The notes below the pieces were generated by a model. That model was not told where the DNA came from, made no database searches, and was given only the letters and a program-made list of their open reading frames with translations. Of a DNA stretch of 44,528 nucleotides, positions 166 through 18,452 are shown piece by piece. This DNA is from a virus. The position numbers were made by a program, and so were the translations under genes. Position 1 is the first letter of the stretch; each line of letters opens with the position of its first letter. The stretch spans positions 1-44,528 of the IMG/VR virus record IMGVR_UViG_3300009706_001267; one strand, written 5' to 3'.

Positions 166-1589
166 AATTTATTATACCATTCTAACCATTCCAGGTCTGG
201 AAAAATTTTATTAAAATCTAGATTTCTTTTTTCTGATACTTTATAACACCATTCAACTGTTTCTGGTAATCTTTCCGACCAATCTTCTGTATTCATAAAA
301 GAAACTAGACCTTCTAATCTTTTAATTCCATATGGAAGTTCTTTCCATTCATTCCATGTTAAGTTTTCTACTCCATTACATTTCTGCCAATTACTTTTTA
401 ACCATTTTCCAAAATCTTGATACTTTAAAGTTGTTTCTTTTTTAAACCAATCTGGAAGTACTTTACAGTTCAATTGCGGCGGCCAATATGCAAGATGCAA
501 ATCTATCATGCCGGCACCGGCAGGAAATTTATTTAATATCTTCCAATCTTCTTCTAATTTCCAAGTTATAAATTCGGGTAAATAAAAAATATTTAGTGCT
601 GTAATACATGTTGCTGTTGTAAGTCTTAAATTATCATAAGGGTAATCATCCATTTTGTGTAATTGATTTACAACTCTTTTCCACTTTGCAGGATATCGAA
701 TAAAATAATTTTGTTCTCCATATGCATCTATACTAAAATGCATAATAACATTTTTAAATTCTTTCCAAAGATCAAATAACTTCGATTGCCATTCTATACC
801 GTTTGAATTATATCTCAGCTCAATATTTTTAGCATAACCCATTTCAATAATTTTTTCAAGAACCTCATAATGTTCATTCATTATAAGTGCTTCACCACCG
901 GCCCAATATAATTGCTTTAATGTGGGAACCTGTTCGTAAAAGTCTTTCCAAAATTCTGGATTCTTTTTATGCCATGCATAACTTCCACCTGACCATGCTA
1001 ATTTTCCAGATTCCTTTTCCCACTCCATACTAGCCTTGAGTCTTTTATTTTCTAGAGTAGGCCAAATTTCTTTATATTCTTTTACCCATTTGCTACTATC
1101 ATGTGGACTACACATAACACATGCAAGATTACACTTACTACCAAGGCGAAGATCAATGTACCTTATTTTAGGTGGTATAGCGCCGTCAGTTTCAGTTTCT
1201 CCAATGATATCGTCGAGTCCGAGCTCATTAATCCATTTGGCTGTTTCCCATTGTCTTTTACTTCTGTGACCGGCATCTTCTTCCTTAAAACATTTTAAAC
1301 AAGATGATGGTTTTTCACCTCGCAACATCATTCTTCTGACACCTTTCATATATTCATTATTCCAGGCATCTAATAATCTAGTTGTGGATAAATTTGCTGG
1401 CTTGCCGTCATCTCTTTTAAGAACACCGGCTTCCGAAACAGTTTTATTAGTAGAATCTTTATCTTGTACCGCTGAAGCATTTGCAGTACAACATACTCTC
1501 ATATGACCTGATGGTCGAGTCGAAATATGCATCCATGGTAAAGCACAAAATGTTGAAGATGGAGTTGGCGGATCATTATCTATTTTCAT
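162..1589 (-). CDS. Radical SAM protein with N-terminal twitch/SPASM-like module (475 aa)
   Basis: The canonical CX3CX2C cluster motif is at C153, C157 and C160 (CNLACVMC), followed by a GGE segment (WAGGEALIM) that normally helps bind SAM. Ahead of it, residues 14-100 read like a SPASM/twitch auxiliary Fe-S domain: FCALPW at 14-19, a CC pair at 33-34, and CLKC at 97-100. In most SPASM proteins that module follows the TIM barrel, so this is the N-terminal-twitch arrangement. Such enzymes make 5'-deoxyadenosyl radicals to modify peptides or small molecules; the substrate is unknown. It is the longest of five such proteins here. Its ATG at 1589 follows the stop of the next radical SAM gene in a TAATATG junction. 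Confidence 0.9.
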   Translation of the reverse strand: MKIDNDPPTPSSTFCALPWMHISTRPSGHMRVCCTANASAVQDKDSTNKTVSEAGVLKRDDGKPANLSTTRLLDAWNNEYMKGVRRMMLRGEKPSSCLKCFKEEDAGHRSKRQWETAKWINELGLDDIIGETETDGAIPPKIRYIDLRLGSKCNLACVMCSPHDSSKWVKEYKEIWPTLENKRLKASMEWEKESGKLAWSGGSYAWHKKNPEFWKDFYEQVPTLKQLYWAGGEALIMNEHYEVLEKIIEMGYAKNIELRYNSNGIEWQSKLFDLWKEFKNVIMHFSIDAYGEQNYFIRYPAKWKRVVNQLHKMDDYPYDNLRLTTATCITALNIFYLPEFITWKLEEDWKILNKFPAGAGMIDLHLAYWPPQLNCKVLPDWFKKETTLKYQDFGKWLKSNWQKCNGVENLTWNEWKELPYGIKRLEGLVSFMNTEDWSERLPETVEWCYKVSEKRNLDFNKIFPDLEWLEWYNKL

Positions 1590-1590
1590 A

Positions 1591-2766
1591 TTAACTGTCT
1601 AACCAGGATATTAAGTTGGGATGAAGGTAATCTCGAAAATTCTGATTACGAGATGAATCAAACAATTTTATTTCTTTAATCATCTTTTGTTTATCTTCTT
1701 GATTATTATCAATAGCATCTTGAATCATATTTAATAACATATGATCACTAAATTCTACATTAAGAATTTTATTATATAATTTTTTTAATAAAAATATGGG
1801 TAATCTTTTTATACCTATACCTCTGAGATTGGGATATACTTCAGTAAAATAAATATTAAATGAATCATTATTCCAGTTTATCAATTCATCTATATAAAAT
1901 ATATTTAATGAACTTACTACACAATTATATTTAATTTCTCTTATATTATAACATTTTTTAATAAAATTAGCAATTGATTTTTCTACTTTTTTAAAAGTAT
2001 ATGGATATCTCACATATTCAAAATTTTTTCCTATTGAATCAATCGATATTGTAAAATATAATCCCTTGAACTCGTTAAGAATATCACAAATTTTATTAGT
2101 AAATAAAGACCCATTCGTTGTTACATTTAAATTTAACCCATCTTTTTTTAGCGGTATCATGGCATTAATAAATTGTTTATTAAAAAGGGGTTCCCCCCCA
2201 GTTACTTTTAATGCACCAATTTTGTGTATATTATTGATCACCCACTCCCATTGGGGTAATTCTACTGAGCTTAATATATTACTGGAGGAAAAAAAACCAT
2301 CGGTTGCCGAAGTGATATCATCAATGTTTTCATGATGACTGAAATAATTAAAATCTTTTTGTAGTAAACTTGAAGCCATTGGTGAACACATCCTGCATGC
2401 CATATTACATTTATTATCTAATAAAAAATGTACCAGGAGTCCGCGTGTATCTATATCAATTTTGTCAGGATTTAATCTGGGACTATGTGGTCCTGTTTTT
2501 TCTAAGTCCCAACAAAATTTACACCTTTTATCTTTCACGCCCTTTAGGTGGTTATCCTGCAGGGTTCGATAATTTGAAGAATCAATTATCTGTTCCGGAT
2601 TTAATTTCGAATCATTGGATTGCCATTCAAGGGGGTTTGGTATTTTTTGAATAGGGCAATGGCTTTCATTATTTTTAGTTATAGCCTCACAGGGCATAAA
2701 AAGAGGAAAATCTTTTTTTCGATTTATAAAAAAAACAGATTTGAATGGTAAATCACAAAGAGGCAT
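1591..2766 (-). CDS. Radical SAM protein with N-terminal twitch-like module (391 aa)
   Basis: CX3CX2C is at C120, C124 and C127 (CNMACRMC), with TGGEP further on. N-terminal cysteines at 4, 26 and 82/85 (CKFC) fit a pre-barrel auxiliary cluster domain. The protein is a clear paralog of the one at 19691-20836. Both end with KEI(K/T)LFD.SRNQ.F..YLHP.L..WL(D/E)S, and both carry the segment YIRYP or YVRYP followed by a KSI motif. This makes an internal duplication within the cluster likely. The start lies 3 nt after the nitroreductase stop and has no clear Shine-Dalgarno, so translation probably depends on coupling. The substrate is unknown. Confidence 0.9.
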   Translation of the reverse strand: MPLCDLPFKSVFFINRKKDFPLFMPCEAITKNNESHCPIQKIPNPLEWQSNDSKLNPEQIIDSSNYRTLQDNHLKGVKDKRCKFCWDLEKTGPHSPRLNPDKIDIDTRGLLVHFLLDNKCNMACRMCSPMASSLLQKDFNYFSHHENIDDITSATDGFFSSSNILSSVELPQWEWVINNIHKIGALKVTGGEPLFNKQFINAMIPLKKDGLNLNVTTNGSLFTNKICDILNEFKGLYFTISIDSIGKNFEYVRYPYTFKKVEKSIANFIKKCYNIREIKYNCVVSSLNIFYIDELINWNNDSFNIYFTEVYPNLRGIGIKRLPIFLLKKLYNKILNVEFSDHMLLNMIQDAIDNNQEDKQKMIKEIKLFDSSRNQNFRDYLHPNLISWLDS

Positions 2767-2769
2767 TTT

Positions 2770-3438
2770 CTAAACATAATTAACACTGATTTGCTTATTG
2801 CGCTTTAATGATGGGAATGTAAAAGTAGGATCGCTGTGATGTTCTCGTCTATCTCTTTTTGTATCAGCAACACCAACACCCATTAACAATACGGGACTCT
2901 CTCCTAAAATATCTTTAACAGCTTGAGAATCCATACACTTACAACAACCAGTGGAATAACCCATCTGCGTTGCTATAACATTTACGTAGCCGGCTGAAAT
3001 ACCAATCGCCATTGCACGATCTTCTTCATAATCATCATCCTCTTCTCTTACTTGAGTAGGTTCATTTTTAGTAAATGCCAATAGCATTTGTCCTAAAACT
3101 TGAGGATTAGTATACCAATCTCCCTTTCCATCACCTTCTTCAAAGTGAGCTCGACCGTCTTTAGATCTTTCATGAGGAGATTTGTTCGCATCAAAGGTTT
3201 TATAGATTGGTCCAAAACCTTCTGTGTGTGAATGAATTTTTTCAATCATATCTCGATCTTCAATAACGTGAAGATTAAAATAGTTAAGATTTTGTTTCGA
3301 AGGAGAATTAGTTGCAGCCTCAACAATTAAATCTTTATCTTCTTGAGGAATGTCTTTACTTAAATCCCAATTTCTCTGACACTTTTGAGATTCATGAATC
3401 GTTTCTCGCAGCATCTTATTAAATGAACCATGTGCCAT
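2770..3438 (-). CDS. Nitroreductase-family flavoprotein
   Basis: This 222-aa protein matches the FMN-dependent nitroreductase fold: SPSKQN near residue 46 (FMN phosphate loop), a central AMAIGISAGYVNVIATQMG helix, and GVGVADTKRDR near the C-terminus. Family members use NAD(P)H to reduce nitro groups, quinones, flavins or enones, and some desaturate peptides. The start has a good ribosome binding site (AAGGAAA, about 7 nt upstream). It lies inside the radical SAM/halogenase operon. A plausible but unproven role is supplying reduced flavin to the two halogenase-like proteins, or reducing or dehydrogenating an intermediate. Confidence 0.85.
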   Translation of the reverse strand: MAHGSFNKMLRETIHESQKCQRNWDLSKDIPQEDKDLIVEAATNSPSKQNLNYFNLHVIEDRDMIEKIHSHTEGFGPIYKTFDANKSPHERSKDGRAHFEEGDGKGDWYTNPQVLGQMLLAFTKNEPTQVREEDDDYEEDRAMAIGISAGYVNVIATQMGYSTGCCKCMDSQAVKDILGESPVLLMGVGVADTKRDRREHHSDPTFTFPSLKRNKQISVNYV

Positions 3439-3462
3439 AATTATTTCCTTATTAAATTTTTA

Positions 3463-3792
3463 TTAATCAATAATCTGTTCCATAACATCTGAAACGGTAT
3501 ATCTTATATTATATTTATGCATTAATCTTTTTTGATCATTTCTTAATTTTATACTATTATAATATTCTTCTTGTGTTTGATATATGTGTGTTAATATACC
3601 GATATTAGGTGGAGTAAAGGTTAAGAAAAAGTGTTCATGACCATATTGCTCCATAAGTTTAAAATTATATATTCGTAACGGATCCTTGTTTTGGGACACT
3701 AACGATGTTTCAAACCAATTTTTAAATTCATATTTATTTTTAAATGATTTATCAGAACACGTTATTATTGTTTGTATAATATATCTATTCAT
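3463..3792 (-). CDS. Small conserved-looking protein of unknown function (109 aa)
   Basis: I chose the ATG at 3790-3792 (MNRYIIQTIITCSDKSF), which overlaps the end of the upstream 2OG-oxygenase gene by 8 nt. A longer in-frame start at 3945 would lie almost wholly inside that gene and adds a segment with no domain features. The product is basic and aromatic-rich (YGHEHFFLTFTPPN; QTQEEYYNSIKLRNDQKRLMHKY) with no signal peptide and no recognisable motif. Its place between a 2OG oxygenase and a nitroreductase suggests an accessory or substrate-handling role, but nothing in the sequence proves it. Confidence 0.7.
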   Translation of the reverse strand: MNRYIIQTIITCSDKSFKNKYEFKNWFETSLVSQNKDPLRIYNFKLMEQYGHEHFFLTFTPPNIGILTHIYQTQEEYYNSIKLRNDQKRLMHKYNIRYTVSDVMEQIID

Positions 3793-4309
3793 TATTCTCC
3801 GGAATAATCCATGGATAATCAATATTGCTTGGTGCCGAAAAATAGTTAAGAGACCAACGATTATTCTTACATTCAACTTTATGTTCCATTGCCGGTTTAT
3901 TAAATTGTTTTGCTCCCATATCACCGAGCCAAATAAACAATCCATAATCTAATTCTTTCCATTGTTTATTTATTTTAAGATACATTCCTGGATAAATGTT
4001 ATAAAGAAAAGTTAACATTCCTCTATCTGTATGCTCTCTAATATAACCTTTATTATATTTTAATATCGAAGCTTTAAAGTTTTTTGTATTTTCATATAAA
4101 GGATCATCTAAAATATCCATATTTAAATTATACATATCACTACACCATTTTTCAGCCTTCATTTCTAGAAATGGGGTCCAATCATACATTTCCATTTTCC
4201 AATAGTTATCGTGAAAGTTATTCCATTCTACATTATCAAATTCTTTAATAGGGATATCAATTTGATAATCTATTTTACAATATCCTTTATCTAATATTTT
4301 ATCTATCAT
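3785..4309 (-). CDS. Fe(II)/2-oxoglutarate oxygenase, isopenicillin-N-synthase-like (short, 174 aa)
   Basis: The metal site is readable: H93-x-D95 in EHTDRGMLTFLYN (the HTDxGxLTLL motif of IPNS-like enzymes), a distal H143 in EHKVEC, and the 2-oxoglutarate-binding R151-x-S153 in NRWSLNYFSAP. At 174 aa it is about half the usual length of these enzymes and is reduced to the double-stranded beta-helix core. The expected reactions are hydroxylation, desaturation or cyclisation of an unactivated carbon. It overlaps the nucleosidase gene upstream by 11 nt and the next small gene by 8 nt. The substrate is unknown. Confidence 0.75.
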   Translation of the reverse strand: MIDKILDKGYCKIDYQIDIPIKEFDNVEWNNFHDNYWKMEMYDWTPFLEMKAEKWCSDMYNLNMDILDDPLYENTKNFKASILKYNKGYIREHTDRGMLTFLYNIYPGMYLKINKQWKELDYGLFIWLGDMGAKQFNKPAMEHKVECKNNRWSLNYFSAPSNIDYPWIIPENNE

Positions 4310-4781
4310 AAAATTCTTTAAAATGTTTTTTACCTATTTCTAAATTATTATATAAATCTTTTATATTATTATTACCTACTTCATCAGTAATATATTTGTA
4401 ACATACAAATTCTACATGAAATTTATCACATATTTCTTTTAAAAAAAAGGCTTCGCAATCTATTAAATCTGGATTTGAAATATTCTGAGAAACAACTTTT
4501 TTTGTAACATACTTATCTTGAGATAAAAGAGTCAATCCCATATTGTTACCTAAAATAATGTTTCCATGTTTAAATGTAGTAATTTGATGTAAACCTCTTA
4601 AACCTGAAATATATGTTCCACAAGAACCATAATTTACTATTCGTGTTAATAACCTGTGGTAGCACGTTAAAGATTGTAAATAATTTCTTAAACTTTCTTT
4701 ACATTTTTTTTCGCCGATTCCTAATAAAATATCCGGATTATCATATTCCTCCGGCATTGCTACTGCTAATATGTTTCGCAT
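4299..4781 (-). CDS. MTA/SAH/5'-deoxyadenosine nucleosidase-like protein (compact MTAN, 160 aa)
   Basis: The sequence aligns by eye with 5'-methylthioadenosine/S-adenosylhomocysteine nucleosidase. ILAVAMPEE covers the N-terminal strand and the Glu at 11/12, IVNYGSCGT matches the INTGSAGG loop, and IDCEAFFLKEICDKFHVEF followed by YITDEVG matches VEMEA...SDVAD. The residues equivalent to E. coli E12, E174 and D197 are retained (E11/12, E110, D133). It is about 70 aa shorter than bacterial MTAN. These enzymes hydrolyse adenine from MTA, SAH and 5'-deoxyadenosine, which is the product of radical SAM chemistry and inhibits it. The gene overlaps the 3' end of a radical SAM gene by 16 nt, fitting a by-product-clearing role (inference). 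Confidence 0.78.
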   Translation of the reverse strand: MRNILAVAMPEEYDNPDILLGIGEKKCKESLRNYLQSLTCYHRLLTRIVNYGSCGTYISGLRGLHQITTFKHGNIILGNNMGLTLLSQDKYVTKKVVSQNISNPDLIDCEAFFLKEICDKFHVEFVCYKYITDEVGNNNIKDLYNNLEIGKKHFKEFYDR

Positions 4782-5875
4782 ACACTATCGTAAATGATTT
4801 GACATTCTTTCGGCATTCCCCATTTTTGAAAATGCTTATAAAATTTTATATATTGGTTTGTATATTCCGGATTATTTTTTTCACTAAACATGAATTCAGA
4901 AACCTTGTCTAATTTTTTATCTAATTTATTTGATATTAATTCTTTTGTAATATCTGGTAACTGTAAAATACTTAAATAATGAGGTTTTAATATTAAATCT
5001 AATGCGTGGTTTTCACCTTCCATGCCGTAATGAATTGGAAGATCTATCCAATCGATTAAATCATTTAAACCTAAAACAGAAAAATTATGAATCACAGAAT
5101 TATAAGAAATGTTTGTTGTATAATTCATCCATTTTGCAGAATTAATTTTAAAATCTTTTATATTTAAACCACGTCTATTCCATTCACCTAATTTACCAAT
5201 AGAATCTATACTTAATACTAAAGAAATCTTTTTAAATTTGGGCAAATAATATTGCCATTTTTTATTTGGAAAAACAGAATTATTTGTGTTAATAAACAAT
5301 TCAACATTTTGAATAATTTTTTGATCTTCTAAAACTTTAAAAACTTTTAAAAAATTATCTTCTATTAGTGGCTCTCCTCCAAGGATTCTTAATAATATTA
5401 AATTTTCTAGATTTACATCAAGCAAATCATATGGAGAAGTTAAATGTTTTTGAGGAGCTATTTGCCCAACTTTATCTACTCCAATATTATTTAATGCTAT
5501 ATCATCTTCATACCAATTTTGACTAAAATGGCTGTTACACATGATACATTGAAAATTACATTTATTACTTAAACATAATTCTAATTCTCTTATAGAAGGA
5601 GTAACAACATGAGGATATTTTTCATTCCAATAATCTCTATGGCTGGGATTGTCGTTTTTAGCATCAACCTTACATTCTATACACCCGGGAATATCTTCAT
5701 TGGTAACCATTCGCATACGAAAATTATAATATTCTTTACCATCAAAAAATTCTTGAAGATTTTTATGAGTTTCGCCAATTTTTACATCCCTAAATCTATC
5801 AAAATATGTTGAACAAGGAACAACGCTTCCGTTTTCATCTTGTCTTATTGTAACCCACGGTGCAGAGCATCTCAT
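4766..5875 (-). CDS. Radical SAM protein with N-terminal twitch/SPASM-like module (369 aa)
   Basis: I chose the ATG at 5873-5875 (MRCSAPWVTI), which overlaps the aldo/keto reductase stop as ATGA. A start 11 codons upstream at 5908 is possible but would lie further inside that gene. The N-terminal module reads RCSAPW, then a Gly and C21, then CIEC at 65-68, like an auxiliary-cluster domain. The radical SAM CX3CX2C is at C106, C110 and C113 (CNFQCIMC), followed by RILGGEPLI. The fold and length are normal for this N-terminal-twitch group. The nucleosidase gene follows directly and overlaps its 3' end. Confidence 0.88.
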   Translation of the reverse strand: MRCSAPWVTIRQDENGSVVPCSTYFDRFRDVKIGETHKNLQEFFDGKEYYNFRMRMVTNEDIPGCIECKVDAKNDNPSHRDYWNEKYPHVVTPSIRELELCLSNKCNFQCIMCNSHFSQNWYEDDIALNNIGVDKVGQIAPQKHLTSPYDLLDVNLENLILLRILGGEPLIEDNFLKVFKVLEDQKIIQNVELFINTNNSVFPNKKWQYYLPKFKKISLVLSIDSIGKLGEWNRRGLNIKDFKINSAKWMNYTTNISYNSVIHNFSVLGLNDLIDWIDLPIHYGMEGENHALDLILKPHYLSILQLPDITKELISNKLDKKLDKVSEFMFSEKNNPEYTNQYIKFYKHFQKWGMPKECQIIYDSVCETY

Positions 5876-6621
5876 GACCAATCCCCCATGGTATTTGGGT
5901 CTGGACATAAACGAAATTGTCTATCATATTCTTTATAATTCTCTAAAGCTCTTTCTGTTAATCCACTTTCAAGTTTTATCATTTCTTGTAATCGATTAAT
6001 TTTAGTGCTTCTAACAATGGGATTAACACCTTTAGATAATAACCAATCGAGCATAACACTTAATGAGATTGATGTCGCTCCCGGCAAAGACGGAGGTCTA
6101 CCTCTACAAATAGAAGAATAAGACTGTACTTCAATGTTATGACGTTTACATTCATTAATTAATTCATCATTCTGACAAAATATATTCAATTCAAATTGAT
6201 TTATATCAGGTGGTATTTCACATATATCTAATAATTTTTGAAGATGTTTAATTGTAAAATTGCAGACACCTATTTTTTCAACTTGGCCTTGATTTTTAAG
6301 ATGTTCAAACGCTCTCCATGTTTCTTTTAACTCTTTTAATGGTAAAACGGGCCAATGTATTAAATATGTTGTTATACTTAAATGTTCGCTGGAATTTTCA
6401 AACTCTTCAATAACATTTTCATATCCCCATTTAAAATAATCTAATTTGGACTGGACTCGAAAGTTACCCTCAAGATCATTACCAACTTCTTTCTCATTTA
6501 AATATCCAGGTGCGGTATCAAAAGTATCAAAGCCGGCTTTTACTGCATTTTTAATTCCAGTACCTTTACCTTTTAAAGCGTGACCATCGTTGCCCCATTT
6601 TTCAACTGTTCCAAATATCAT
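5872..6621 (-). CDS. Aldo/keto reductase family oxidoreductase
   Basis: The AKR catalytic tetrad is visible: D35 (FDTFDTAPGY), Y40, K59 (QSKLDYFKWG) and H89 (YLIHWP). Also present are the family segment KIGVCNF and, near the C-terminus, a probable NADPH-phosphate contact region (PIVRSTKINRLQEM). At 249 aa it is somewhat short for an AKR but covers the whole barrel. It would reduce or oxidise a carbonyl/alcohol using NADPH. It overlaps the flanking radical SAM genes by 4 nt (ATGA) at both ends, which ties it to the same pathway. Its substrate cannot be inferred. Confidence 0.88.
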   Translation of the reverse strand: MIFGTVEKWGNDGHALKGKGTGIKNAVKAGFDTFDTAPGYLNEKEVGNDLEGNFRVQSKLDYFKWGYENVIEEFENSSEHLSITTYLIHWPVLPLKELKETWRAFEHLKNQGQVEKIGVCNFTIKHLQKLLDICEIPPDINQFELNIFCQNDELINECKRHNIEVQSYSSICRGRPPSLPGATSISLSVMLDWLLSKGVNPIVRSTKINRLQEMIKLESGLTERALENYKEYDRQFRLCPDPNTMGDWS

Positions 6622-7685
6622 ATATCATACATTATAATGGGCGGAACATTTTCGGTCATTTTGCTCATATCTTCTAAGAGATATTCAGAAGGCAAAGCTT
6701 GTTTATATTCATCTTCAAATTCCGGTAAAAAATCTAATAATGATTTATTATATTGAACATCGCGCATCTTTAAAAAACTCATGGCCGATTTAAATTTATC
6801 TAAATCTGGTACTGCGTGTTTAAAAGATTTTGTTAACTGATGGCTTTCACTATTTTGAAGCTTATAAGGAATAGGTAAATTTATGGCATCTAAAATGCTA
6901 GGTATCATTAATCTATTAACAGTAGTTAATATTTTTCCGAATTCACTGGACACATAATTTTTAATATCATTTAAATACTTATAATTCATCATCTGCATAG
7001 TACACATAAAATCTATATCAAAATATTCCGCATATTTTTTTACATTTAAATGTTTTTTAGTAAAATTGGAACCTTGACGAATATAATCATCTAATTGCCC
7101 AACACCATCTATCGAAACTATAAATTTAATTTTCTTCTTAGTTAATTTATATAACCACTTGGGAAAAACGGTGGCATTAGTTATGAGTACAAATTCTGCA
7201 TCAAGATTAAATAGTGCGTCTTTTACACTTTTCATTAATAATGCTTCGCCTCCTATAAACCCAATTTTTTTAATATCTTTAAATTCATCAATATTATAAT
7301 TCCAATTATCTATTATTGGTCCATACTGGGAAGATCTCTCAGGACCACATCCAGCGCATTGTAGGTTGCATAGATTACCAATTTGATTTAAATTAATATG
7401 AGTTAATTCTTCCTTAGGTGGCTCAATAAAAGGAATTCTGGGAGACGTTTCATTAGAGTTTTCTAATTTTATACAAAAACGGCACATGTCTTGGACATCA
7501 GAAGAAAATATGCCATTAGCCATATCTGATCGAATATTTTTTAATAAAGAACTATTAAAGAAACTATTCGGTGATGAATTATGATATTTTGGATATACCT
7601 TAGACCAAGAACAAGTTTGATAGCCCCCTTCCATGGTCATGTTTAACATGCTATATGGAAATTCACATGTAAAATTTTTAGTCAT
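6618..7685 (-). CDS. Radical SAM protein with N-terminal cysteine module (355 aa)
   Basis: CX3CX2C is at C106, C110 and C113 (CNLQCAGC), with IGFIGGEALLM further on. Cysteines at 7, 25, 68 and 71 (CRFC) precede the barrel and are spaced like the auxiliary module of the sibling proteins. It is divergent from the other four: a Gly replaces the usual hydrophobic residue before the third cluster cysteine, and CGPERSSQYG replaces the CSP/CNS/CDP continuation. It starts in a TAATATG junction with the FkbM methyltransferase and overlaps the AKR gene as ATGA. The target is unknown. Confidence 0.86.
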   Translation of the reverse strand: MTKNFTCEFPYSMLNMTMEGGYQTCSWSKVYPKYHNSSPNSFFNSSLLKNIRSDMANGIFSSDVQDMCRFCIKLENSNETSPRIPFIEPPKEELTHINLNQIGNLCNLQCAGCGPERSSQYGPIIDNWNYNIDEFKDIKKIGFIGGEALLMKSVKDALFNLDAEFVLITNATVFPKWLYKLTKKKIKFIVSIDGVGQLDDYIRQGSNFTKKHLNVKKYAEYFDIDFMCTMQMMNYKYLNDIKNYVSSEFGKILTTVNRLMIPSILDAINLPIPYKLQNSESHQLTKSFKHAVPDLDKFKSAMSFLKMRDVQYNKSLLDFLPEFEDEYKQALPSEYLLEDMSKMTENVPPIIMYDI

Positions 7686-7686
7686 A

Positions 7687-8538
7687 TTAATCGGGGACAG
7701 CTATCCTATACTTCATATTCCACTCTGAAAAAGTATCCACTATTGAGACAGAATATCCTAGACTAGCTAAAAGATTATTGAGTGTAGCCATGCCCATATT
7801 GAAAGGTTCATTCGATTCACGAATTCCAGAATCAAAATTAACAGTAGATTCATCATGACTATAATAACTTATTTGATCTTCATATAGTTGGTATATTATA
7901 ACGGGCCTGTGTGTTTGTATAGTATTAATAGCGCCCATAATAGTAAGATATTCGCTACCATTAGTATGTAAATTAATTAAATCAACATCGGCGAAATCGT
8001 ATTCATCAATTTCTTTCATTGGAATATCTGAAGACCTATCAGTTAGTGCTGAAAATTTAGACTCAATTTCTGGTATATCGGCTCTGATAAATCTGAAAGA
8101 ACTATGGTCGGCTTCATCAGTTAATTCCATAATAGCAATTTCCCCCTGCTTGTACAGTAATCCATCTTTCAAAAATATGTTCACATTATATTCCTGACCA
8201 TCCGACAGAACAACAGTTTTATTATTCCGATGAGAAATAGCAACATTATATAGTTCTATATTAGATAAATCTTCGGTATTTTTGCGAAAACATTCACAAT
8301 TAGATGCAGAAGGTTCAAATGCATGAACTTTATTGAAATCCTTACTCAATACAGTTGACCAGATCCCATAATATGCTCCAATATCTATTGCTGTTCTTTT
8401 ATTAGATAAATCCAAATCATTTAATATTTTCTTATGCTTATCAAACGCCGTGCTTCCTGTAATAGGAAAGTCATCAGCAAGTTTTTGGCTGAATGCTGTA
8501 TCATCTTCGTGCCTATGCCATCCGTTATCTTGTATCAT
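7687..8538 (-). CDS. FkbM-family SAM-dependent methyltransferase
   Basis: A Rossmann motif I is at 50-60 (AIDIGAYYGIW), motif II is VHAFEPS near 73-79, and NIELYNVAIS follows, which together are typical of FkbM methyltransferases. Later ADVDLINLHTNGSEYLTIMGA matches the D.lKiDveG.E segment of the family. These enzymes O-methylate sugars or natural products using SAM. The gene has a good ribosome binding site (AAAAGG, about 8 nt upstream of the ATG) and sits between a TauD-like oxygenase and a radical SAM gene. It produces SAH, another substrate of the nucleosidase in the same operon. Confidence 0.85.
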   Translation of the reverse strand: MIQDNGWHRHEDDTAFSQKLADDFPITGSTAFDKHKKILNDLDLSNKRTAIDIGAYYGIWSTVLSKDFNKVHAFEPSASNCECFRKNTEDLSNIELYNVAISHRNNKTVVLSDGQEYNVNIFLKDGLLYKQGEIAIMELTDEADHSSFRFIRADIPEIESKFSALTDRSSDIPMKEIDEYDFADVDLINLHTNGSEYLTIMGAINTIQTHRPVIIYQLYEDQISYYSHDESTVNFDSGIRESNEPFNMGMATLNNLLASLGYSVSIVDTFSEWNMKYRIAVPD

Positions 8539-8554
8539 TTAATTACCTTTTTAC

Positions 8555-9634
8555 TTAATAAGAATTGAACGCTGGAAATCTTTCATCATTTAATCCTAAA
8601 ATATTGTTCATTTCATTATTTTCTTTTATATATTGAGATTTCCATGGTTCTTTTAAATATAGACTATCAACTCTTTGAATATATCTTAAATTATGTTGAA
8701 TCCTATATCCTAATCTACCTGTAGATAAATCGCCTTGACGCCTATGTAGAGAAATAGAATTATCAAGAAAAATTAAATCACTGGAAGTATACCAATGATC
8801 GTAAATATATTTATCTACTAATAATGTTTTATTTATATTATCGGTTATCTTTTTAAATTCAGAATCAGTCGCGCCTTTAATTCCGGCAACAGTGCTAGTA
8901 ATAGTATAATGTAAACCCTTTATTCCGCCAGGAGACTGCAAAACCATGGGCAGTTCACATCTTTCGGGGCACATATTATTTTTAATTATTACTTGTTGTT
9001 CATCTTCAGATAATTCGGGAGTAAATCTATTTTTAGTAAAATCGTGAATGAGAATCATATCATCGAGCTCACTTCTAAAAGACTGTGTCTGTTCTTCATA
9101 CCAGTCGGCCGTAGTCAAAAACCCAGTAGAAGATCCAATGACATCTTTATATCCATAAAAAGATACGCTGGGCGCGAATAAAAAATTGCCGGATTCATTA
9201 GCATGCCAAAGCAGTTCTCCGTCGGGGAACATTCCTGTAAAATCACCATTGGAATCTCTTCTAGATGTTACTCTAACTGCCGCAGCTTTGTCCTTATCTA
9301 TATCAGTAGCCTTAACCTTATCCACTGCCCTGAACCATTGCTTCTCTTCATCAGTTAAGTTTAATTTCGACATATTATTAGCAAATTGAAAAACATCTGC
9401 GAACCCATATTTTTTGGTAATATTAACCAAAAAAGTACTAGTACCATCACCCCATTTCAGAGTTAAATCTTCGAATTGTGATAAAGTAAAATCACAATTG
9501 CGTATTATAATTACCAAATTGTCCAAATATAAAGTGGCAATCTCACTCCATAATTCGGGGGTAATATCTTTATAATATAGATCATCTATGAATAGGCCAA
9601 AGCTTCCTAATCCGGGAATTTTACTTGTTTTCAT
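8555..9634 (-). CDS. TauD/TfdA-like Fe(II)/2-oxoglutarate dioxygenase with altered facial triad
   Basis: At 359 aa this has TauD/clavaminate-synthase-like features: LLWHANESGNF at 141-150 in the position of the WHTD motif, a long insert, and a C-terminal region FLDNSISLHRRQ...GYRIQHNLRYIQR carrying the distal His and the cofactor-binding Arg. The metal-binding HxD is replaced by H144-A-N146-E147, so the carboxylate ligand is either lost or shifted by one residue. Expected chemistry is hydroxylation or a related oxidation. If the carboxylate is truly absent, a halide-binding or inactive site is possible. It follows the PhyH-type gene after 8 nt. Confidence 0.75.
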   Translation of the reverse strand: MKTSKIPGLGSFGLFIDDLYYKDITPELWSEIATLYLDNLVIIIRNCDFTLSQFEDLTLKWGDGTSTFLVNITKKYGFADVFQFANNMSKLNLTDEEKQWFRAVDKVKATDIDKDKAAAVRVTSRRDSNGDFTGMFPDGELLWHANESGNFLFAPSVSFYGYKDVIGSSTGFLTTADWYEEQTQSFRSELDDMILIHDFTKNRFTPELSEDEQQVIIKNNMCPERCELPMVLQSPGGIKGLHYTITSTVAGIKGATDSEFKKITDNINKTLLVDKYIYDHWYTSSDLIFLDNSISLHRRQGDLSTGRLGYRIQHNLRYIQRVDSLYLKEPWKSQYIKENNEMNNILGLNDERFPAFNSY

Positions 9635-9642
9635 ATAACTAT

Positions 9643-10650
9643 TTAAAATTGTGTGGTGTTGCTCATAATATGGTTTGTTGCGTCATCTATTTCATCTGGC
9701 GATACAAATTTTGATTGTAAAAAAGACCAATACCATTGATACTCTGTACTGTCCCAATCTTCATATATTTCATCCCATGTCTGCTCGGTCATATGGGGAA
9801 TATAAAAATAATCTGCCATAGGATCAGATAATGGTATAAATCTAAAATCAGCGGAAAATCTTAAATGATTCGTTGTATTGGTCGTACTAAAATGGGTAGA
9901 CATATTATGAAAAAGAAGGACGTCGCCACTTTCAAAATCATTGGTTAACCATTTATAATCATCTTTATTTAGTTTAAAAGTTAACTGTTCAGATTGATCA
10001 TAAAATCTACTTTCATTTGGAATAACACCCAAATTTAAATGGCTGTCTTTCGCAATTACTAAAACACCTTTATTCATGGGGATATCACCTAATGGAACCC
10101 ACGCGGTCCACATATTTCGCGCAATACCAGAATACCAAAAATCCTGATGTAATTTAGAAAAGTCACCGTTATTTTTAAAAAATCTAAAAAGTACTCTGGG
10201 CAATAAAATAAATTCTTCGCCATATATATGAGAAAATAATTTATGTAAGGGAAGTTCTTTATGTAAATATTCATTAAAAGATTGTAATTTAACGAAATTA
10301 TCCCAAAATGCAGTGGGCCCAGATCCGGTATTAGTATCTACCTCATCGCGTATAATATCATCTTTTAATAATAAATTTTGTTTGTTACATATACGCAAGA
10401 CATCATCCCTTAAAGACATATTTCTTTTTACATCTAATGCGCCCTTTAAATATAAGTAACCATCTAACTTAGCCCTTTTTTTAATCTCGTCATAATCACC
10501 ATCATGAAATGCAACGCTGGAATCTGTATATGGAGATATATCATAATCTTCAATCTTACCAGACCAATCATTATGAGCGGTTTTATATAAGCCATTTATT
10601 ACAGCACTGTCTGTAGCATTATGTTGAATTCGAGTTTCTACGTCATGCAT
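9643..10650 (-). CDS. Phytanoyl-CoA dioxygenase (PhyH)-like oxygenase 1
   Basis: I chose the ATG at 10648-10650 (MHDVETRIQH, 335 aa). It has a strong ribosome binding site (GGAGAGGA, about 9-13 nt upstream) and overlaps the upstream radical SAM stop by 8 nt. The alternative ATG at 10680 has no ribosome binding site. The PhyH Fe site is clear: H168-Q-D170 (KLHQDFWYSG), a distal His near 253 (MSTHFSTTN), and an Arg near 264 in LRFSADFR for 2-oxoglutarate. It shares a general layout with the second PhyH at 12466-13392, and the two flank one B12-type radical SAM gene. Confidence 0.82.
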   Translation of the reverse strand: MHDVETRIQHNATDSAVINGLYKTAHNDWSGKIEDYDISPYTDSSVAFHDGDYDEIKKRAKLDGYLYLKGALDVKRNMSLRDDVLRICNKQNLLLKDDIIRDEVDTNTGSGPTAFWDNFVKLQSFNEYLHKELPLHKLFSHIYGEEFILLPRVLFRFFKNNGDFSKLHQDFWYSGIARNMWTAWVPLGDIPMNKGVLVIAKDSHLNLGVIPNESRFYDQSEQLTFKLNKDDYKWLTNDFESGDVLLFHNMSTHFSTTNTTNHLRFSADFRFIPLSDPMADYFYIPHMTEQTWDEIYEDWDSTEYQWYWSFLQSKFVSPDEIDDATNHIMSNTTQF

Positions 10651-12469
10651 AAATTTCGTTCCTCTCCGGTGAACCCCCATCTATGATATTTTGTGTTACA
10701 TCTCGATAATAAAAATTCGAATCGTCTTTTCTTTTTACCATTTCAATCACTTCCGCAAACTGTTCATCATTTAAAATATTTATATACGCATCAGAAATAA
10801 ATGTTGTGATATCGTGGAAAAAAAACATATGATGTTCCTGGAAAAATTTAATATCTTGAAATTTTAAAGATTTCATATCATATGCAAAATAACTCTTGTT
10901 TATTAAAGACTCCAATTCTGAATATCTTTCATTTATTATTCCATGAGAATTAATAATATATGTTTGTAATCTTTTAAAAACTTCAACTAGCGGCTCATCA
11001 GTACATTTGCTTATATAATTTACAACGTCTTTTAGAATAATATGATACCAAAAACATTCTATTACCCAATAAAACATCCAACACTTAATAGCTTCAGATT
11101 CTGTCATTGAAAAGGTTTCTACTATTATATCAGCATATTCCAAATGTTCATTTTTAAATTTGTCCAAGCTAGTATATATGCGCCTCTCGGAAAATTCCTT
11201 ACTTACAAAATAATTATATGGCATATTTCTAACTTTGATTTTATATTTTTTTTGATATTCTGGCTCACCGAATTCGGAATTGGGAAGAACCATGGCCGGA
11301 TATATCATCCCATCGGACGAATCATTTTGTAAAAAATATTCCCAATCAGAAACAAAACTATTATATGTCATTCCCGGTAAGGGAATTATAAGTTCAACTT
11401 CAAAAGGCACATCATTTTGCTTTTGATTATCTACTATTAGATCTAGATCAGCTATGCTTAAATTATCTCGTCTAATATTAGCTAATGTATCATGATCAAA
11501 ACTTTGTATAGCTACTCTGGGTGATGGTGTTTTATCAAAAGGTAATGCCTCTCTGATCAATTTCTGAATTTCCGCGACACCATTTTTTTTCGGAGGAGTC
11601 TTGGCGTACCCTAGTGTAGGAAAAAATTCAGGATAGCCCTCTTTTTTGTAAACATCAACCAAATGCTGTACGAGTTCAATATCTCTTTTTTTAAATATAC
11701 CAAAATTCGCATCGGATATCCACATAGCAAACATTTTTTTATCTGCAATATATGTAATTTCATCCTTACACCGATCTATATCAAATATTTTTACTTTTTG
11801 ATAAGTTAATCCTCCCCAATCACAAAAAGAACATCTAAAGGGACATCCCCTATTAGATTCCCACGTAGCATGGAATTTTACATCAGGATAATCTAACATT
11901 AACTTTTCAAAAAATCCAGTGAGATAGGGGCTTGGTATTACATCAAGATTCTTCATTCTGGGATGAGAGGGGGTTCTCAGAATATCATTAGAATCATTTA
12001 ATATGATTCCATTTATTTTAGAATAATCTGGTATATCATTGACTCGCTCTAATAAAATATTTTCAAAAATTTCTTCGCCTTCATTTACGACAGCAATATC
12101 AATATATGGATGATCTTTAAACCATTCATCCTGTTTAATTGGTATATGGGGTCCGCCGACAATAATAAGACAATTAGGATATAATTCTTTAATTTTTTTT
12201 GCTATAATACATTGAAAGCTTGTATTCCAAACATAACAACAAAATGCTACCACATCTGGTTGATCTAGGGTTTTTAGTATATCATTTAAAGGATCCCTAA
12301 ACACAATAGTGTCTTTAAGGATATAATTATTTTTAATCAATTCATTGCGGTGAGCATATTCCCACAATACGCCTGCCGTATAGGGTAAAAAGGCCCATTC
12401 ACATTTTGACATTCCCCCTATAGTTTCGTCAGCTGGGGTTATTTGACACATGTATAAATTTTTATTCAT
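10643..12469 (-). CDS. B12-binding-domain radical SAM enzyme 1 (608 aa)
   Basis: Residues about 60-145 resemble a cobalamin-binding Rossmann domain (PDVVAFCCYVWNTS; CLIIVGGPHIP; VNEGEE). CX3CX2C then follows at C209, C213 and C216 in RGCPFRCSFCDWGG, the usual order in B12-dependent radical SAM methyltransferases and ring-forming enzymes. The canonical DxHxxG cobalamin His motif is not obvious. A tail of about 190 aa (from roughly residue 420) is unassigned. It is a clear paralog of the 550-aa protein at 15158-16810, sharing AKTPP.KN, PRVA(I/L)QS and PLPG.TYN blocks. Its ATG overlaps the upstream PhyH stop as ATGA. Confidence 0.88.
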   Translation of the reverse strand: MNKNLYMCQITPADETIGGMSKCEWAFLPYTAGVLWEYAHRNELIKNNYILKDTIVFRDPLNDILKTLDQPDVVAFCCYVWNTSFQCIIAKKIKELYPNCLIIVGGPHIPIKQDEWFKDHPYIDIAVVNEGEEIFENILLERVNDIPDYSKINGIILNDSNDILRTPSHPRMKNLDVIPSPYLTGFFEKLMLDYPDVKFHATWESNRGCPFRCSFCDWGGLTYQKVKIFDIDRCKDEITYIADKKMFAMWISDANFGIFKKRDIELVQHLVDVYKKEGYPEFFPTLGYAKTPPKKNGVAEIQKLIREALPFDKTPSPRVAIQSFDHDTLANIRRDNLSIADLDLIVDNQKQNDVPFEVELIIPLPGMTYNSFVSDWEYFLQNDSSDGMIYPAMVLPNSEFGEPEYQKKYKIKVRNMPYNYFVSKEFSERRIYTSLDKFKNEHLEYADIIVETFSMTESEAIKCWMFYWVIECFWYHIILKDVVNYISKCTDEPLVEVFKRLQTYIINSHGIINERYSELESLINKSYFAYDMKSLKFQDIKFFQEHHMFFFHDITTFISDAYINILNDEQFAEVIEMVKRKDDSNFYYRDVTQNIIDGGSPERNEIYA

Positions 12470-13392
12470 TGCAATGTATCATTAAAATCTATTTTTATGG
12501 TTGCATGATTTTCAGCAACGGCTCTGGATAACGATTCATCCTGAACAATATTTAAATTATATCTATCCCAATAAAAACATTTTGATTTATCTTTAAAATT
12601 TGAATATATATCTTTCCATTCCAAATCTTTAGAATGTGTATCAAAAAATAAATCAAAAAATCTCTCATCTATGGGTTGGTATCTAACGTCTAAGGTGCAT
12701 CGGACTTTAGATGATATATTATGGTTGTTTCCATGTTGAGTGAGGACATTGAACATTAAAAAATCTCCTGTTTGAAAATTATCAGAAACCCATTCTTCAA
12801 AGTTAGTTGGATGAAATGCAATCATCTGATTTTTTTCATGAAAATATCTTTGTTCTGGAGGGATTTCTCCAAGAATATGGGATTGAGAATTTATTTTCAT
12901 GGTACCAAGCTCTATGGGAACGTCTCCAAAAGGAACCCATATTGTCCACAAATCATTTGACATTCCAGCATACCAATGATCTTGATGTGGTAATGTTGTC
13001 AATCTGGGATTATTAGGAAAAATTGTCCTTTGAACTAATCTGGGTATAGGTATGCAATCTTTGCCAGTAATTATTTTCATTACATCATAAAACATTTTTT
13101 GATGCATATATGAATGTAAATCTTCCAGATAATTAATATCAGTAAAATAATCATCCGGGCCCACTCCGCCGGCATAAAACATATCTTGAAAATCTGTATT
13201 AAAATCCCCAGTTTCAGTAATATAATTATATTTTAATAAAATTTCGTCTAGTTGACGTTTAACATTTAAATTCTCTTCTATATCTAAACATTGTTTAAAA
13301 AAAAGATATCCATACTTATCTGCAAAATTTTTAATTTCTGAAACATTTCCATTTTTCCAATGCTCACTACAATCTATGAATTTTTTTACCAT
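12466..13392 (-). CDS. Phytanoyl-CoA dioxygenase (PhyH)-like oxygenase 2
   Basis: The 308-aa sequence has H136-Q-D138 (LPHQDHWYAGM), distal H220 in VLTQHGNNH and R231 in KVRCTLDVRYQP, the PhyH Fe(II)/2-oxoglutarate set. WTIWVPFGDVPIELGTM mirrors WTAWVPLGDIPMNKGVL in PhyH-like oxygenase 1, so the two are paralogs, but they are diverged and probably act on different positions or substrates. The start overlaps the preceding oxygenase-like gene by 7 nt, and its stop overlaps the B12 radical SAM start as ATGA. Confidence 0.83.
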   Translation of the reverse strand: MVKKFIDCSEHWKNGNVSEIKNFADKYGYLFFKQCLDIEENLNVKRQLDEILLKYNYITETGDFNTDFQDMFYAGGVGPDDYFTDINYLEDLHSYMHQKMFYDVMKIITGKDCIPIPRLVQRTIFPNNPRLTTLPHQDHWYAGMSNDLWTIWVPFGDVPIELGTMKINSQSHILGEIPPEQRYFHEKNQMIAFHPTNFEEWVSDNFQTGDFLMFNVLTQHGNNHNISSKVRCTLDVRYQPIDERFFDLFFDTHSKDLEWKDIYSNFKDKSKCFYWDRYNLNIVQDESLSRAVAENHATIKIDFNDTLQ

Positions 13393-14081
13393 AAAACATC
13401 CAGTGCTCGTGGATTCAATGATATAAAAAACTGGTATACATCATCAGTAAAGGCTAACCCTTCGTGGGGTTTAATGGAATCATGTAAATAGAGCCGGCCT
13501 GATTCTATATGAGATTCACTTATCATTCTTCCATCTTTTTCATAACGTATAACCATGCCGTCGGGATTAGTGGTGCCCCATAATTTAATCCATTGTGTTG
13601 GATGCCATGTATCTATATGTTTTTTAAAATGGCCCAAATAATCCCATTTGAGTATGCAACTTCTGTACATATAAGGTAATAATTCACTTAATGCGGATAG
13701 GCTAGAAATCTTTAATGCGGCGGTTGGCACCTTAAAATGTTTTTCATTCACAATGCTGTCCATATCAATTTCCTGAGAATTCCATTCTTTCCATTTAACC
13801 AGATGGTCATCTGTCCATTCTTTATATTTGAATTGGGGATATTCTAATAAAAAGTTCCATCTATCTAATGGATAACACGCAGGGTCATCTTTTTTAAAAA
13901 TACCATCTTCATTAATTAAAGGAATCGCATACCGTGGAAATTCTAGATGAACATCTCCCCAAGGCGTAAAATTAAATTTAGATATTTCCTTTACAAATAA
14001 TTCACTATCTATTTTTAGTTTAGTAGGAACCACATTTTCGGTATGATATGTGTAATATTCTTTTTCCGTTAAGACTTCCAT
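13386..14081 (-). CDS. Probable Fe(II)/2-oxoglutarate oxygenase, aspartyl/asparaginyl-hydroxylase-like
   Basis: This 231-aa protein has H155-x-D157 in GHFKKHIDTWHP followed about 49 residues later by H206 in SIKPHEGLAFTDDVYQF, a spacing that fits a jelly-roll oxygenase metal site of the Asp/Asn beta-hydroxylase type. The region between is strand-rich (WIKLWG; MVIRYEKDG; RLYLHDS). The N-terminal 130 residues are unassigned. The call rests on motif spacing only. It overlaps the adenylation-like gene upstream by 13 nt and sits in a mini-module with that gene and the GNAT-like gene. Confidence 0.5.
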   Translation of the reverse strand: MEVLTEKEYYTYHTENVVPTKLKIDSELFVKEISKFNFTPWGDVHLEFPRYAIPLINEDGIFKKDDPACYPLDRWNFLLEYPQFKYKEWTDDHLVKWKEWNSQEIDMDSIVNEKHFKVPTAALKISSLSALSELLPYMYRSCILKWDYLGHFKKHIDTWHPTQWIKLWGTTNPDGMVIRYEKDGRMISESHIESGRLYLHDSIKPHEGLAFTDDVYQFFISLNPRALDVLW

Positions 14082-14689
14082 GTATCATTCTTTATCTGAG
14101 TTGATCTAGTCAAAAATTCTCCTGTGTCAAGGTCAAATGTATCACCTGTATTTACACCATCAACAAATAATGTATCTTCGTGTTCCAAATAATATGGTGA
14201 TTCTTTAAAATTAAAAACAGGGCCATTTGAAATCATTACGGGTGGAATACATTCTGTAGATCCATATATATTCCAAACATTTTGCGCGCCTGTTGATTCC
14301 ATTAACGAAATATCTTCATCGGTAACTGGAGCAGAACCTGTAGAAAAATTTTTAACAAATTCAAGATTTGGTTTTTTTCTTTTAACAAGAGTCCTCCATG
14401 TTCCGACTGCTAATGTAAGAACTGTTGGTTTAACTTCTTCTACAACATCCCAGAATTTCAAAGGTTCCATTTTAATATTTACTATTTCACAATGGGTAAT
14501 TTTTGCAGGTATTATACAAAACGCCCAGCTTGCTATAGTCCATGTCGGAAAGGGATTTAGGATAACATCTCGATTATCTATTCTCCATTTTTCAACTAAC
14601 CAATTTCCTGCTTTATAAAAGTCCCCCATGTCATGCGTAACTTTTTTTTGTTTTCCTGCGGAGCCACTTGTAAATAAGGATATTTTCAT
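14069..14689 (-). CDS. Minimal AMP-binding (ANL adenylation-like) protein, 206 aa
   Basis: The adenylation core is visible. Residues 6-19 contain FTSGSAGKQKKVTH, matching the (S/T)SG(S/T)TGxPKxV phosphate-loop motif, and residues 141-146 are IYGSTE, matching the YGxTE motif. A short GDTFDLDTGEF follows. Normal ANL enzymes exceed 450 aa. Here the N-terminal subdomain before the P-loop and the entire C-terminal subdomain with the catalytic lysine are missing. It might form or bind an acyl-adenylate, act with a partner, or be a repurposed scaffold. Overlaps: ATGA with the GNAT-like gene and 13 nt with the next oxygenase gene. Confidence 0.75.
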   Translation of the reverse strand: MKISLFTSGSAGKQKKVTHDMGDFYKAGNWLVEKWRIDNRDVILNPFPTWTIASWAFCIIPAKITHCEIVNIKMEPLKFWDVVEEVKPTVLTLAVGTWRTLVKRKKPNLEFVKNFSTGSAPVTDEDISLMESTGAQNVWNIYGSTECIPPVMISNGPVFNFKESPYYLEHEDTLFVDGVNTGDTFDLDTGEFLTRSTQIKNDTWKS

Positions 14690-15171
14690 AAATTATATCT
14701 CCAAATATTTTGTTTTACATTATTAAACATTTTACATTCCACTAAGTCTACGATACCTTTTTGGGATAACTTTTTCATAATGTTTGAAAATTTATAACTC
14801 TTAGCGCCATTTTTAGAATCTACATTATTTGTTAAATAATATGGACCGATTCCACCAGTAATTTCCTTTTGGATGTTTATATGGCTCCATTGATACGAAC
14901 TTTGTGTAATATCTCCCGATACTTTTTTTACATGTCCAGGAAGAGTAACGCCTCTGAATAATAAACGATATCCTTTTAATTCATCCTCCCATTTAACCCC
15001 ACTCATAGAAATTAAAGATGAATCTATAAAAGTCCCCACCCAATTGGCTTCATTATATTTAATACTATTTAAACTCACATTATTAATATATCTTAAATAT
15101 GAACATTCAACTAAAAATTCTAATATTATCAGTAAATCATCATCATTTAATAATCTATTACCGCATACCAT
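14686..15171 (-). CDS. Possible GNAT-type acetyltransferase-like protein (161 aa, tentative)
   Basis: Size and layout resemble a GNAT fold: an N-terminal helical part, then strands (NWVGTFIDSSLISMSGVKWED), then GYRLLFRGVTLPGH, and a C-terminal LVECKMFNNVKQNIWRYNL. No unambiguous acetyl-CoA-binding Q/RxxGxG/A motif is seen, so the call is weak. The gene overlaps the end of the B12 radical SAM gene by 14 nt and the adenylation-like gene by 4 nt. The company of an adenylation-like protein would fit an acyl-transfer step, but this is inference. Confidence 0.35.
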   Translation of the reverse strand: MVCGNRLLNDDDLLIILEFLVECSYLRYINNVSLNSIKYNEANWVGTFIDSSLISMSGVKWEDELKGYRLLFRGVTLPGHVKKVSGDITQSSYQWSHINIQKEITGGIGPYYLTNNVDSKNGAKSYKFSNIMKKLSQKGIVDLVECKMFNNVKQNIWRYNL

Positions 15172-16810
15172 AACCCACGCCTAAATTATCTATATGTTTA
15201 TTAAAATATATGGATATAAAATTTTCAATGTCCTTTAAAACTAAAGTAATGTGTTGCCGAAAATAATTGATAGAGTAATTATGATCAACCACTTGGTCAT
15301 AGTCATCATATGTTTTATGAATATTATTTTTTAATAGATCATATAATATGCCTATAGTTGTCGTTGAATCACATTCTAAAAATTCTTGAAACTTAACGAA
15401 AAAATCTTTTACTTCAATATCTCCTTTAAAATATTCAGAATATATATATTTTAATATTGGCTCGAACCAAAAATTCATAATAATCCATACGAACATCCAA
15501 CCTCTAACAACATCTTCATAAGACATAGACTTCATAGAAGTAATAATTTCACATTCTTCCATGTCGACATTAAAAGGAATAACTTTTGTTTTTATTTTAA
15601 AACGTTCCTTATAAGATTTATCATTAAGCTCTGCATTGGGCAAAATCAAACAAGGATATACGTTTATTTTTAATTTTTTAATAGGCATTAGCTCGGATAT
15701 TTCATTAACCCATCCATTATACGTAGTGCCTGGTAGGGGATATATTAATTCAATCTCTATATTTTTAGAATCCATCCTATCCGCATTGACAATGCTCATA
15801 TTTTTTCTTTTAATATTAGATAAAACTTCCGGGTCAGTGGATTGTAAAGCAACTCTAGGAACAGTATTATTATTCTTAACCCCCTCTGCTAATCGTTGTT
15901 GTATTTGTAATGAAGAATTTTTACTAGGTGGAGTTTTTGCATATCCCGAGTGCGCTATTTTTTGGGGATAACCAGTAGTCTCATGAAACTTCACTGCATT
16001 ATCTATTATATTATAATCTCTTTCTTTAAATATACCCAAATTACTATTTGTGAACCAAAGATAATTTATTTTATTACGGCTGATCCATTCGAATTCTTCG
16101 AATAGTCGCGGTTCATCAAATTTTATCATTTTTTGTGCGGTTAAACTACCCCAATCACAAAAAACACATTTAAATGGGCAACCCCTATCCATCTCAACGG
16201 TGGCATGAAAATTAACCGAAGGATTTTTTGATATAAGACCATTAAAAATGCCCGACAAATATGGACTAGGAATTGTATTAATATTTTTAATTCTAGCACC
16301 GGGTTTTGTTTTTAAAATTTTATTATGTTTTCTAAAAATAATGCCCGGTATCTCAGAAAAATCTTTTTTATTAAAATATTCTAATAAAATTTGTTCAAAG
16401 ACTATCTCCCCTTCCCCCACAACTCCGATGTCTACATAATCATGCAAATTATACCATTTATTATCATTAGAATTTGGAACATGTGGTCCACCACAAATAA
16501 TCAAGCAATTAGGATACCTTTCTTTTATTTTTTTTAATATATAAAGGTGTTTATTAGAATTCCACATATAATTGCTAGTAGCGACTACATCCGGCTGTTC
16601 CATATTATCAATATAATGATTTAAATTATCTATATTGAAAACCAAATCCTTTAACTTAAAATTATCGGATATTATTTTATTTTGCAAACTATAAGACCAA
16701 AGAAGCCCGACAGAATATGGTAAAAATGCAGATTTATTACTTGACATTTCAACGCCAACGGAAGAGTCGGTTAAAGGAGACGTTAATTGTAACAAATAAA
16801 CATTCTTCAT
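15158..16810 (-). CDS. B12-binding-domain radical SAM enzyme 2 (550 aa)
   Basis: An N-terminal cobalamin-binding-like domain (PDVVATSNYMWNSN; CLIICGGPHVP; GVVGEGE, about 60-145) precedes CX3CX2C at C211, C215 and C218 in RGCPFKCVFCDWGS. The protein is paralogous to enzyme 1 at 10643-12469: both have SPYL(S/T)GxF, FHAT.E..RGCPF and GYAKTPP.KN. It is about 60 aa shorter, and no DxHxxG motif was found. The genes probably arose by duplication within the cluster. Expected chemistry is radical methylation of carbon or phosphorus, or another B12/SAM radical step. It overlaps the halogenase stop as ATGA. Confidence 0.88.
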   Translation of the reverse strand: MKNVYLLQLTSPLTDSSVGVEMSSNKSAFLPYSVGLLWSYSLQNKIISDNFKLKDLVFNIDNLNHYIDNMEQPDVVATSNYMWNSNKHLYILKKIKERYPNCLIICGGPHVPNSNDNKWYNLHDYVDIGVVGEGEIVFEQILLEYFNKKDFSEIPGIIFRKHNKILKTKPGARIKNINTIPSPYLSGIFNGLISKNPSVNFHATVEMDRGCPFKCVFCDWGSLTAQKMIKFDEPRLFEEFEWISRNKINYLWFTNSNLGIFKERDYNIIDNAVKFHETTGYPQKIAHSGYAKTPPSKNSSLQIQQRLAEGVKNNNTVPRVALQSTDPEVLSNIKRKNMSIVNADRMDSKNIEIELIYPLPGTTYNGWVNEISELMPIKKLKINVYPCLILPNAELNDKSYKERFKIKTKVIPFNVDMEECEIITSMKSMSYEDVVRGWMFVWIIMNFWFEPILKYIYSEYFKGDIEVKDFFVKFQEFLECDSTTTIGILYDLLKNNIHKTYDDYDQVVDHNYSINYFRQHITLVLKDIENFISIYFNKHIDNLGVGYGMR

Positions 16811-18451: not shown

Positions 18452-18452
18452 A

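Follow-up and report, generated by a model that had tools for sequence, protein, structure and literature searches.

A predicted compact, lid-less MTAN-fold nucleosidase tied to a single radical SAM enzyme gene in a T4-like marine phage

The DNA analysed here, which we call the window, is the whole 44,528-nucleotide stretch of IMG/VR record IMGVR_UViG_3300009706_001267; it derives from a T4-like marine phage, as seen from a primase that shares 48% identity with cyanophage gp61. Near its left end lies a cassette of eight leftward genes, among them a 160-codon ORF whose product we predict to be a minimal nucleosidase (Table 1). This ORF overlaps the gene of its partner, radical SAM 380, by 16 nt (4766-4781, the radical SAM ORF having its 3' end at 4766), exactly as an earlier note on this DNA had read it, and its stop is in turn overlapped by 11 nt by the gene for a 174-aa oxygenase-like protein that is always next in the cassette. 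The start of radical SAM 380 at position 5875 is an internal Met of an ORF that opens at 5908; we favour it because the homologues in L004, L107 and L286 begin at the same internal Met. The window contains seven radical SAM genes, all with the CxxxCxxC motif, and one FkbM methyltransferase gene, the same counts that the earlier note had given. Two of the seven are B12-binding KedN5-like proteins and an adenosylcobalamin-type ribonucleotide reductase is encoded at 30851-32812, so the phage looks cobalamin-dependent. The window also encodes two tryptophan-halogenase-like flavoproteins (PF04820; 16807-17814 and 18453-19706), and at 25286-27315 it has heptose-phosphate isomerase and kinase-like genes with a nucleotidyltransferase-like gene, a set that suggests an activated-heptose pathway.

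Table 1. Features of the nucleosidase cassette, in order of transcription
Feature	Position	Strand	Remarks
Radical SAM protein (radical SAM 355)	6618..7685	-	NF033640, below cut-off; upstream end of cassette
Aldo-keto reductase	5872..6621	-	PF00248; D-Y-K-H tetrad residues present; 4-nt overlap with radical SAM start
Partner radical SAM enzyme (radical SAM 380)	4766..5875	-	NF033640; N-terminal twitch/SPASM-like cysteines, CNFQCIMC motif
Nucleosidase ORF	4299..4781	-	160 aa; lid-less MTAN-fold nucleosidase (predicted)
Nucleosidase catalytic codons	E12 4746-4748; E110 4452-4454; D133 4383-4385	-	
174-aa oxygenase-like protein	3785..4309	-	Weak PF03171 (2OG-Fe(II) oxygenase), below cut-off
Small ORF	3463..3792	-	About 109 aa if begun at the Met conserved in L107
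Nitroreductase-family protein	2770..3438	-	PF00881; same cassette as nucleosidase
Radical SAM protein (radical SAM 391)	1591..2766	-	NF033640; same cassette as nucleosidase

Besides the window record, nine contigs carry a nucleosidase of this short, lid-less type. Four IMG/VR contigs have it at 87-100% identity (L001, one of the nine, has an identical copy) and others at 44-48%; the carriers also include L286, a contig of an Acidimicrobiaceae MAG that, judged by its gene content, is a phage-type contig inside that MAG. The order reductase-radical SAM-nucleosidase, with its 16-nt overlap, is present in all nine, as is the order of the entire cassette: radical SAM 355, aldo-keto reductase, radical SAM 380 and nucleosidase, then the 174-aa oxygenase-like protein, small ORF, nitroreductase and radical SAM 391. 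All homologues of radical SAM 380 with at least 68% identity adjoin a nucleosidase gene. The modules are mosaic, and in L106 radical SAM 380 is 94% identical to that of the window while the nucleosidase and reductase are only 48% and 44% identical; despite this, the three functions remain together. The nucleosidase ORF is a real protein-coding gene kept under purifying selection, with dN/dS values of 0.21-0.50 in the comparisons that have enough synonymous changes; on these values and the intact residues described below we reject a pseudogene.

Recognition of the nucleosidase as an MTAN relative depends upon an intermediate, the 180-aa homologue encoded by phage C48C1, as searches with the single sequence were uninformative. 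The window protein has no match in Pfam, falling short of the PF01048 gathering score that its lid-bearing relatives pass, and a phmmer search of the PDB returned a single match, due to chance. Its NCBIfam matches are weak and far under cut-off (2.4e-7 for the MTAN model and 1e-6 for NF004168, the latter scoring 28.7 bits where the cut-off is 129 and even lid-bearing C48C1 reaches only 102). The HpnG model TIGR03468, which is matched weakly by lid-bearing relatives, is not matched by the window nucleosidase (E up to 10) or that of L107 (0.001). Searches through C48C1 reach 80 viral loci, a second group, and many marine bacteria (SAR86, SAR11, SAR116). A profile of these relatives, built without the window branch, finds the window nucleosidase with E = 4.2e-19 (the best of 2000 shuffles gave E = 23), and the family profile that includes the branch matches the solved MTAN structure 4pr3 at 2.7e-25; C48C1 alone matches 4pr3 at 1.5e-10. 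An AlphaFold2 model built on the alignment of relatives has a pLDDT of 88 and pTM of 0.85, and its top Foldseek matches in the PDB are MTANs (4pr3, E = 2.2e-8, probability 1.0), so the MTAN fold anticipated by the earlier note is borne out; among predicted viral structures the model matches giant-virus phosphorylases only. In a tree the lid-less branch groups with Leucothrix/Lysobacterales proteins, on a long branch of 2.4 changes per site. We propose that the branch derives from the compact nucleosidases of marine bacteria and phages (about 173-200 aa); in view of its length in the tree we claim no exact origin within that pool.

The active site was aligned to E. coli MtnN as reference with 42 compact relatives, including seven lid-less proteins of 157-161 aa. 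E12, E174 and D197 of the E. coli enzyme correspond to E12, E110 and D133 of the window protein and are invariant in all 42, which agrees with the three catalytic acids assigned earlier. The position of R193 is Lys across the family (K129 in the window, invariant in the seven lid-less sequences), and the lid-less proteins keep a Tyr or Phe at the position of F151. They have lost, in 7/7 sequences, the residues V102, F105, Y107 and P113, which in MTAN structures form a loop that reaches over from the adjacent subunit to cap the 5' substituent. At 160 aa the window protein lacks 72 of the 232 residues of the E. coli protein, close to the gap of about 70 noted before. In addition, the ribose-contacting Met173 is Cys in the seven lid-less proteins, and a conserved GD before F151 is partly lost in their branch; because of these two changes and the long branch, the specificity may have shifted. 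The conservation of E12 suggests, on the MTAN mechanism, that the nucleosidase is hydrolytic and uses water, not phosphate, as nucleophile. Among possible substrates, 5'-deoxyadenosine or a bulky 5'-adduct is more likely than SAH or MTA, since the lid that holds the 5'-thio group of the latter two is deleted, and the SAH clearance suggested in the earlier note is thus less favoured.

The lid-bearing relatives have different neighbours. An adenine phosphoribosyltransferase (APRT) gene lies within 1.5 kb of the nucleosidase gene at 70/90 phage loci and 40/77 bacterial loci and MetK is nearby at 7 phage loci, figures that are locus counts and not independent events (many of the phage loci are near-copies, and the contigs are fragments); the identities of these neighbours were confirmed for representatives. 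One SAR11 locus has a SpeD/SpeE-type gene after the nucleosidase. The recurrent pair of APRT and lid-bearing nucleosidase (L010:5475-6543, L113:2457-3713 and L291:4466-5531; found in SAR86, SAR11, Leucothrix and many phages) suggests a phage-borne adenine-salvage pair, and APRT, MetK and the nucleosidase are encoded together in one phage stretch (L083:2694-5172), a candidate SAM-cycle set. These APRT and MetK neighbours point to a parent family that most likely frees adenine from nucleosides derived from SAM, so that it can be salvaged. There is no APRT beside the lid-less nucleosidase at any of 8 loci; PRTase-domain matches in L001 and L111 were considered as APRTs and rejected, since one proved to be a PRPP synthetase and the other a protein of 160 aa that does not resemble APRT. 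Our reading is that the lid-less branch left the salvage context, lost its 5' lid, and settled into a fixed association with a single radical SAM enzyme and with a reductase.

The nucleosidase tracks a particular radical SAM enzyme and not this enzyme class as a whole. It is absent from 43/43 other contigs that carry a related radical SAM gene; the nucleosidase search was repeated on a subset of the radical SAM contigs with positive controls, of which 7/7 were found. A PF01048 search excludes ordinary family members only, as lid-less proteins escape it (G001 and G003 were missed). The 17 of these nucleosidase-less contigs that were counted have 2-22 N_Twi radical SAM matches each, and the contigs with lid-bearing nucleosidases mostly have 0-2 (there are two exceptions, with 12 and 13). 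One of the 43, L279 (= L125), has flanking genes like those of the window phage, other cargo, and no nucleosidase. Comparison of L279:8801-11353 with window positions 1589-19691 reveals a hypervariable site for cassettes, flanked by radical SAM genes, with wholly different cargo in the two phages. The viral contigs L135, L133 and L141 have as many as 22 NF033640 (twitch-type radical SAM) matches. The co-occurrence with phage radical SAM genes that the earlier note proposed as a check holds for the cassette, in 9/9 contigs, and not for such genes at large. Since radical SAM-rich phages without a nucleosidase are common, removal of 5'-deoxyadenosine is not generally needed in phages.

We tentatively favour, at a probability of about 0.45, the idea that the lid-less nucleosidase serves its partner radical SAM enzyme by hydrolytic clearance of that enzyme's 5'-deoxyadenosine. 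The partner would make 5'-deoxyadenosine at every turnover, and the nucleosidase would split it into adenine and 5-deoxyribose, relieving product inhibition; the freed 5-deoxyribose may then be reduced by the aldo-keto reductase that this set of overlapping genes encodes. In favour are the predicted fold, the invariant catalytic residues, the conserved gene order, the APRT and MetK neighbours of the lid-bearing relatives, and the partner's predicted structure, which resembles SPASM/twitch and viperin/MoaA-type enzymes. It is documented, as the earlier note had stated, that 5'-deoxyadenosine inhibits radical SAM reactions and that MTAN cleaves it (PMC7557402), and M. tuberculosis MtnN has a preference for this substrate (PMC6302742). 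Of the dedicated clean-up enzyme originally imagined, the MTAN fold, catalytic acids and coupling to a radical SAM enzyme stand, and the general service to seven radical SAM enzymes and a methyltransferase is not supported. That broader role, in which the protein would dispose of SAH, MTA and 5'-deoxyadenosine from all the radical SAM enzymes and methyltransferases and feed adenine salvage, has in its favour the number of potential sources in the window (seven radical SAM enzymes, two of them B12-binding and KedN5-like, the FkbM methyltransferase and the adenosylcobalamin-type ribonucleotide reductase), the APRT and MetK neighbours of the lid-bearing relatives, and a Lake Baikal phage population with MetK, MTAN and radical SAM proteins (PMC7678222). 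However, we think it unlikely in view of the 43/43 contigs, L279 among them, that do without the enzyme, the loss of the lid, and the absence of a nearby APRT (the PRTase-domain matches being the PRPP synthetase, L115, and the 160-aa non-APRT-like protein, L366).

A different kind of tie to the partner would be biosynthetic: the radical SAM enzyme might add the 5'-deoxyadenosyl group to a substrate, the nucleosidase strip the adenine from this bulky 5'-adduct, and the reductase reduce the aldehyde of the ribosylated product. This suits the loss of the lid and the presence of the reductase equally well as 5'-deoxyadenosine removal does: exactly the 5' lid is gone, and the overlapping genes include one of the aldose-reductase type. 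That the nucleosidase is linked to a single radical SAM gene instead of radical SAM genes generally and has no APRT partner (0/8) also points this way. There are precedents in hopanoid biosynthesis, where HpnH is followed by HpnG (PMC12583986), and in menaquinone biosynthesis, where MTAN acts on 6-amino-6-deoxyfutalosine (PMC7557402). The partner itself speaks less for such a step: its predicted structure (pLDDT 88) best matches SkfB, anSME, viperin and MoaA and no enzyme known to add an adenosyl group (HpnH and MqnE are possibly absent from the PDB), and it belongs to the N_Twi radical SAM proteins, a family of mostly uncharacterised members. We judge the biosynthetic role improbable overall, and more doubtful still is its fullest version, a three-step phage module in which the radical SAM enzyme adenosylates a substrate, the lid-less MTAN strips the adenine and the reductase opens and reduces the ribose to a polyol chain; if true, that chain would resemble that of bacteriohopanetetrol, on a different molecule. 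The nucleosidase could also have become a non-catalytic or changed protein, an MTAN-fold binding or chaperone subunit of its partner. In favour of this, its gene ranks with those of the cassette that evolve fastest (48% identity in a comparison in which the partner keeps 94%), Met173 is replaced by Cys, the lid is missing, and the overlap with one enzyme gene is fixed. Against it, the whole lid-less branch retains the three catalytic acids and a Lys in place of R193 without exception, and with dN/dS at 0.22-0.46 as well we hold a non-catalytic role to be very unlikely.

Several known systems resemble parts of this arrangement. MTAN itself (the MTA/SAH nucleosidase MtnN) shares with the window protein the fold, the equivalents of E12, E174 and D197, the aromatic base-stacking residue and the purine-type Asp, but differs in its 72 additional residues, in having the 5' lid loop, Met173 and R193 (Cys and Lys in the window protein), and in that the window nucleosidase is embedded in a radical SAM-reductase cassette. 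Among curated families of such short proteins the closest one, NF004168/PRK05634 (about 185 aa), has a K-[YF]-[IV]-[ST]-D motif that is common to the window protein and the lid-bearing relatives; the window protein is without the QRDM...G.TP loop, and the aligned lid-bearing proteins of the NF004168 type differ from it in keeping Met at 173, often beside APRT. As in the HpnH/HpnG pair, a radical SAM enzyme is followed by a phosphorylase-superfamily enzyme that removes adenine (predicted here), but the window partner is of the twitch/SPASM type and the lid-less proteins do not match the HpnG model. Lake Baikal phage VP_139 also combines an MTAN and MetK with radical SAM proteins (PMC7678222), described as separate SAM-cycle genes and not a fixed reductase-radical SAM-nucleosidase set. 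Thus the general idea is not new, as phages that encode MTAN, MetK and radical SAM proteins have already been reported (PMC7678222); the lid-less, cassette-bound form of the nucleosidase appears to be new within the literature searched.

These comparisons define a minimal, lid-less branch of the MTANs that curated models have overlooked, and show that in marine bacteria and phages its lid-bearing parent family goes together with adenine salvage. They also offer a clear example of one predicted adenine nucleosidase bound to one radical SAM enzyme, and so make testable whether phages remove 5'-deoxyadenosine locally or use such a nucleosidase as a biosynthetic step.
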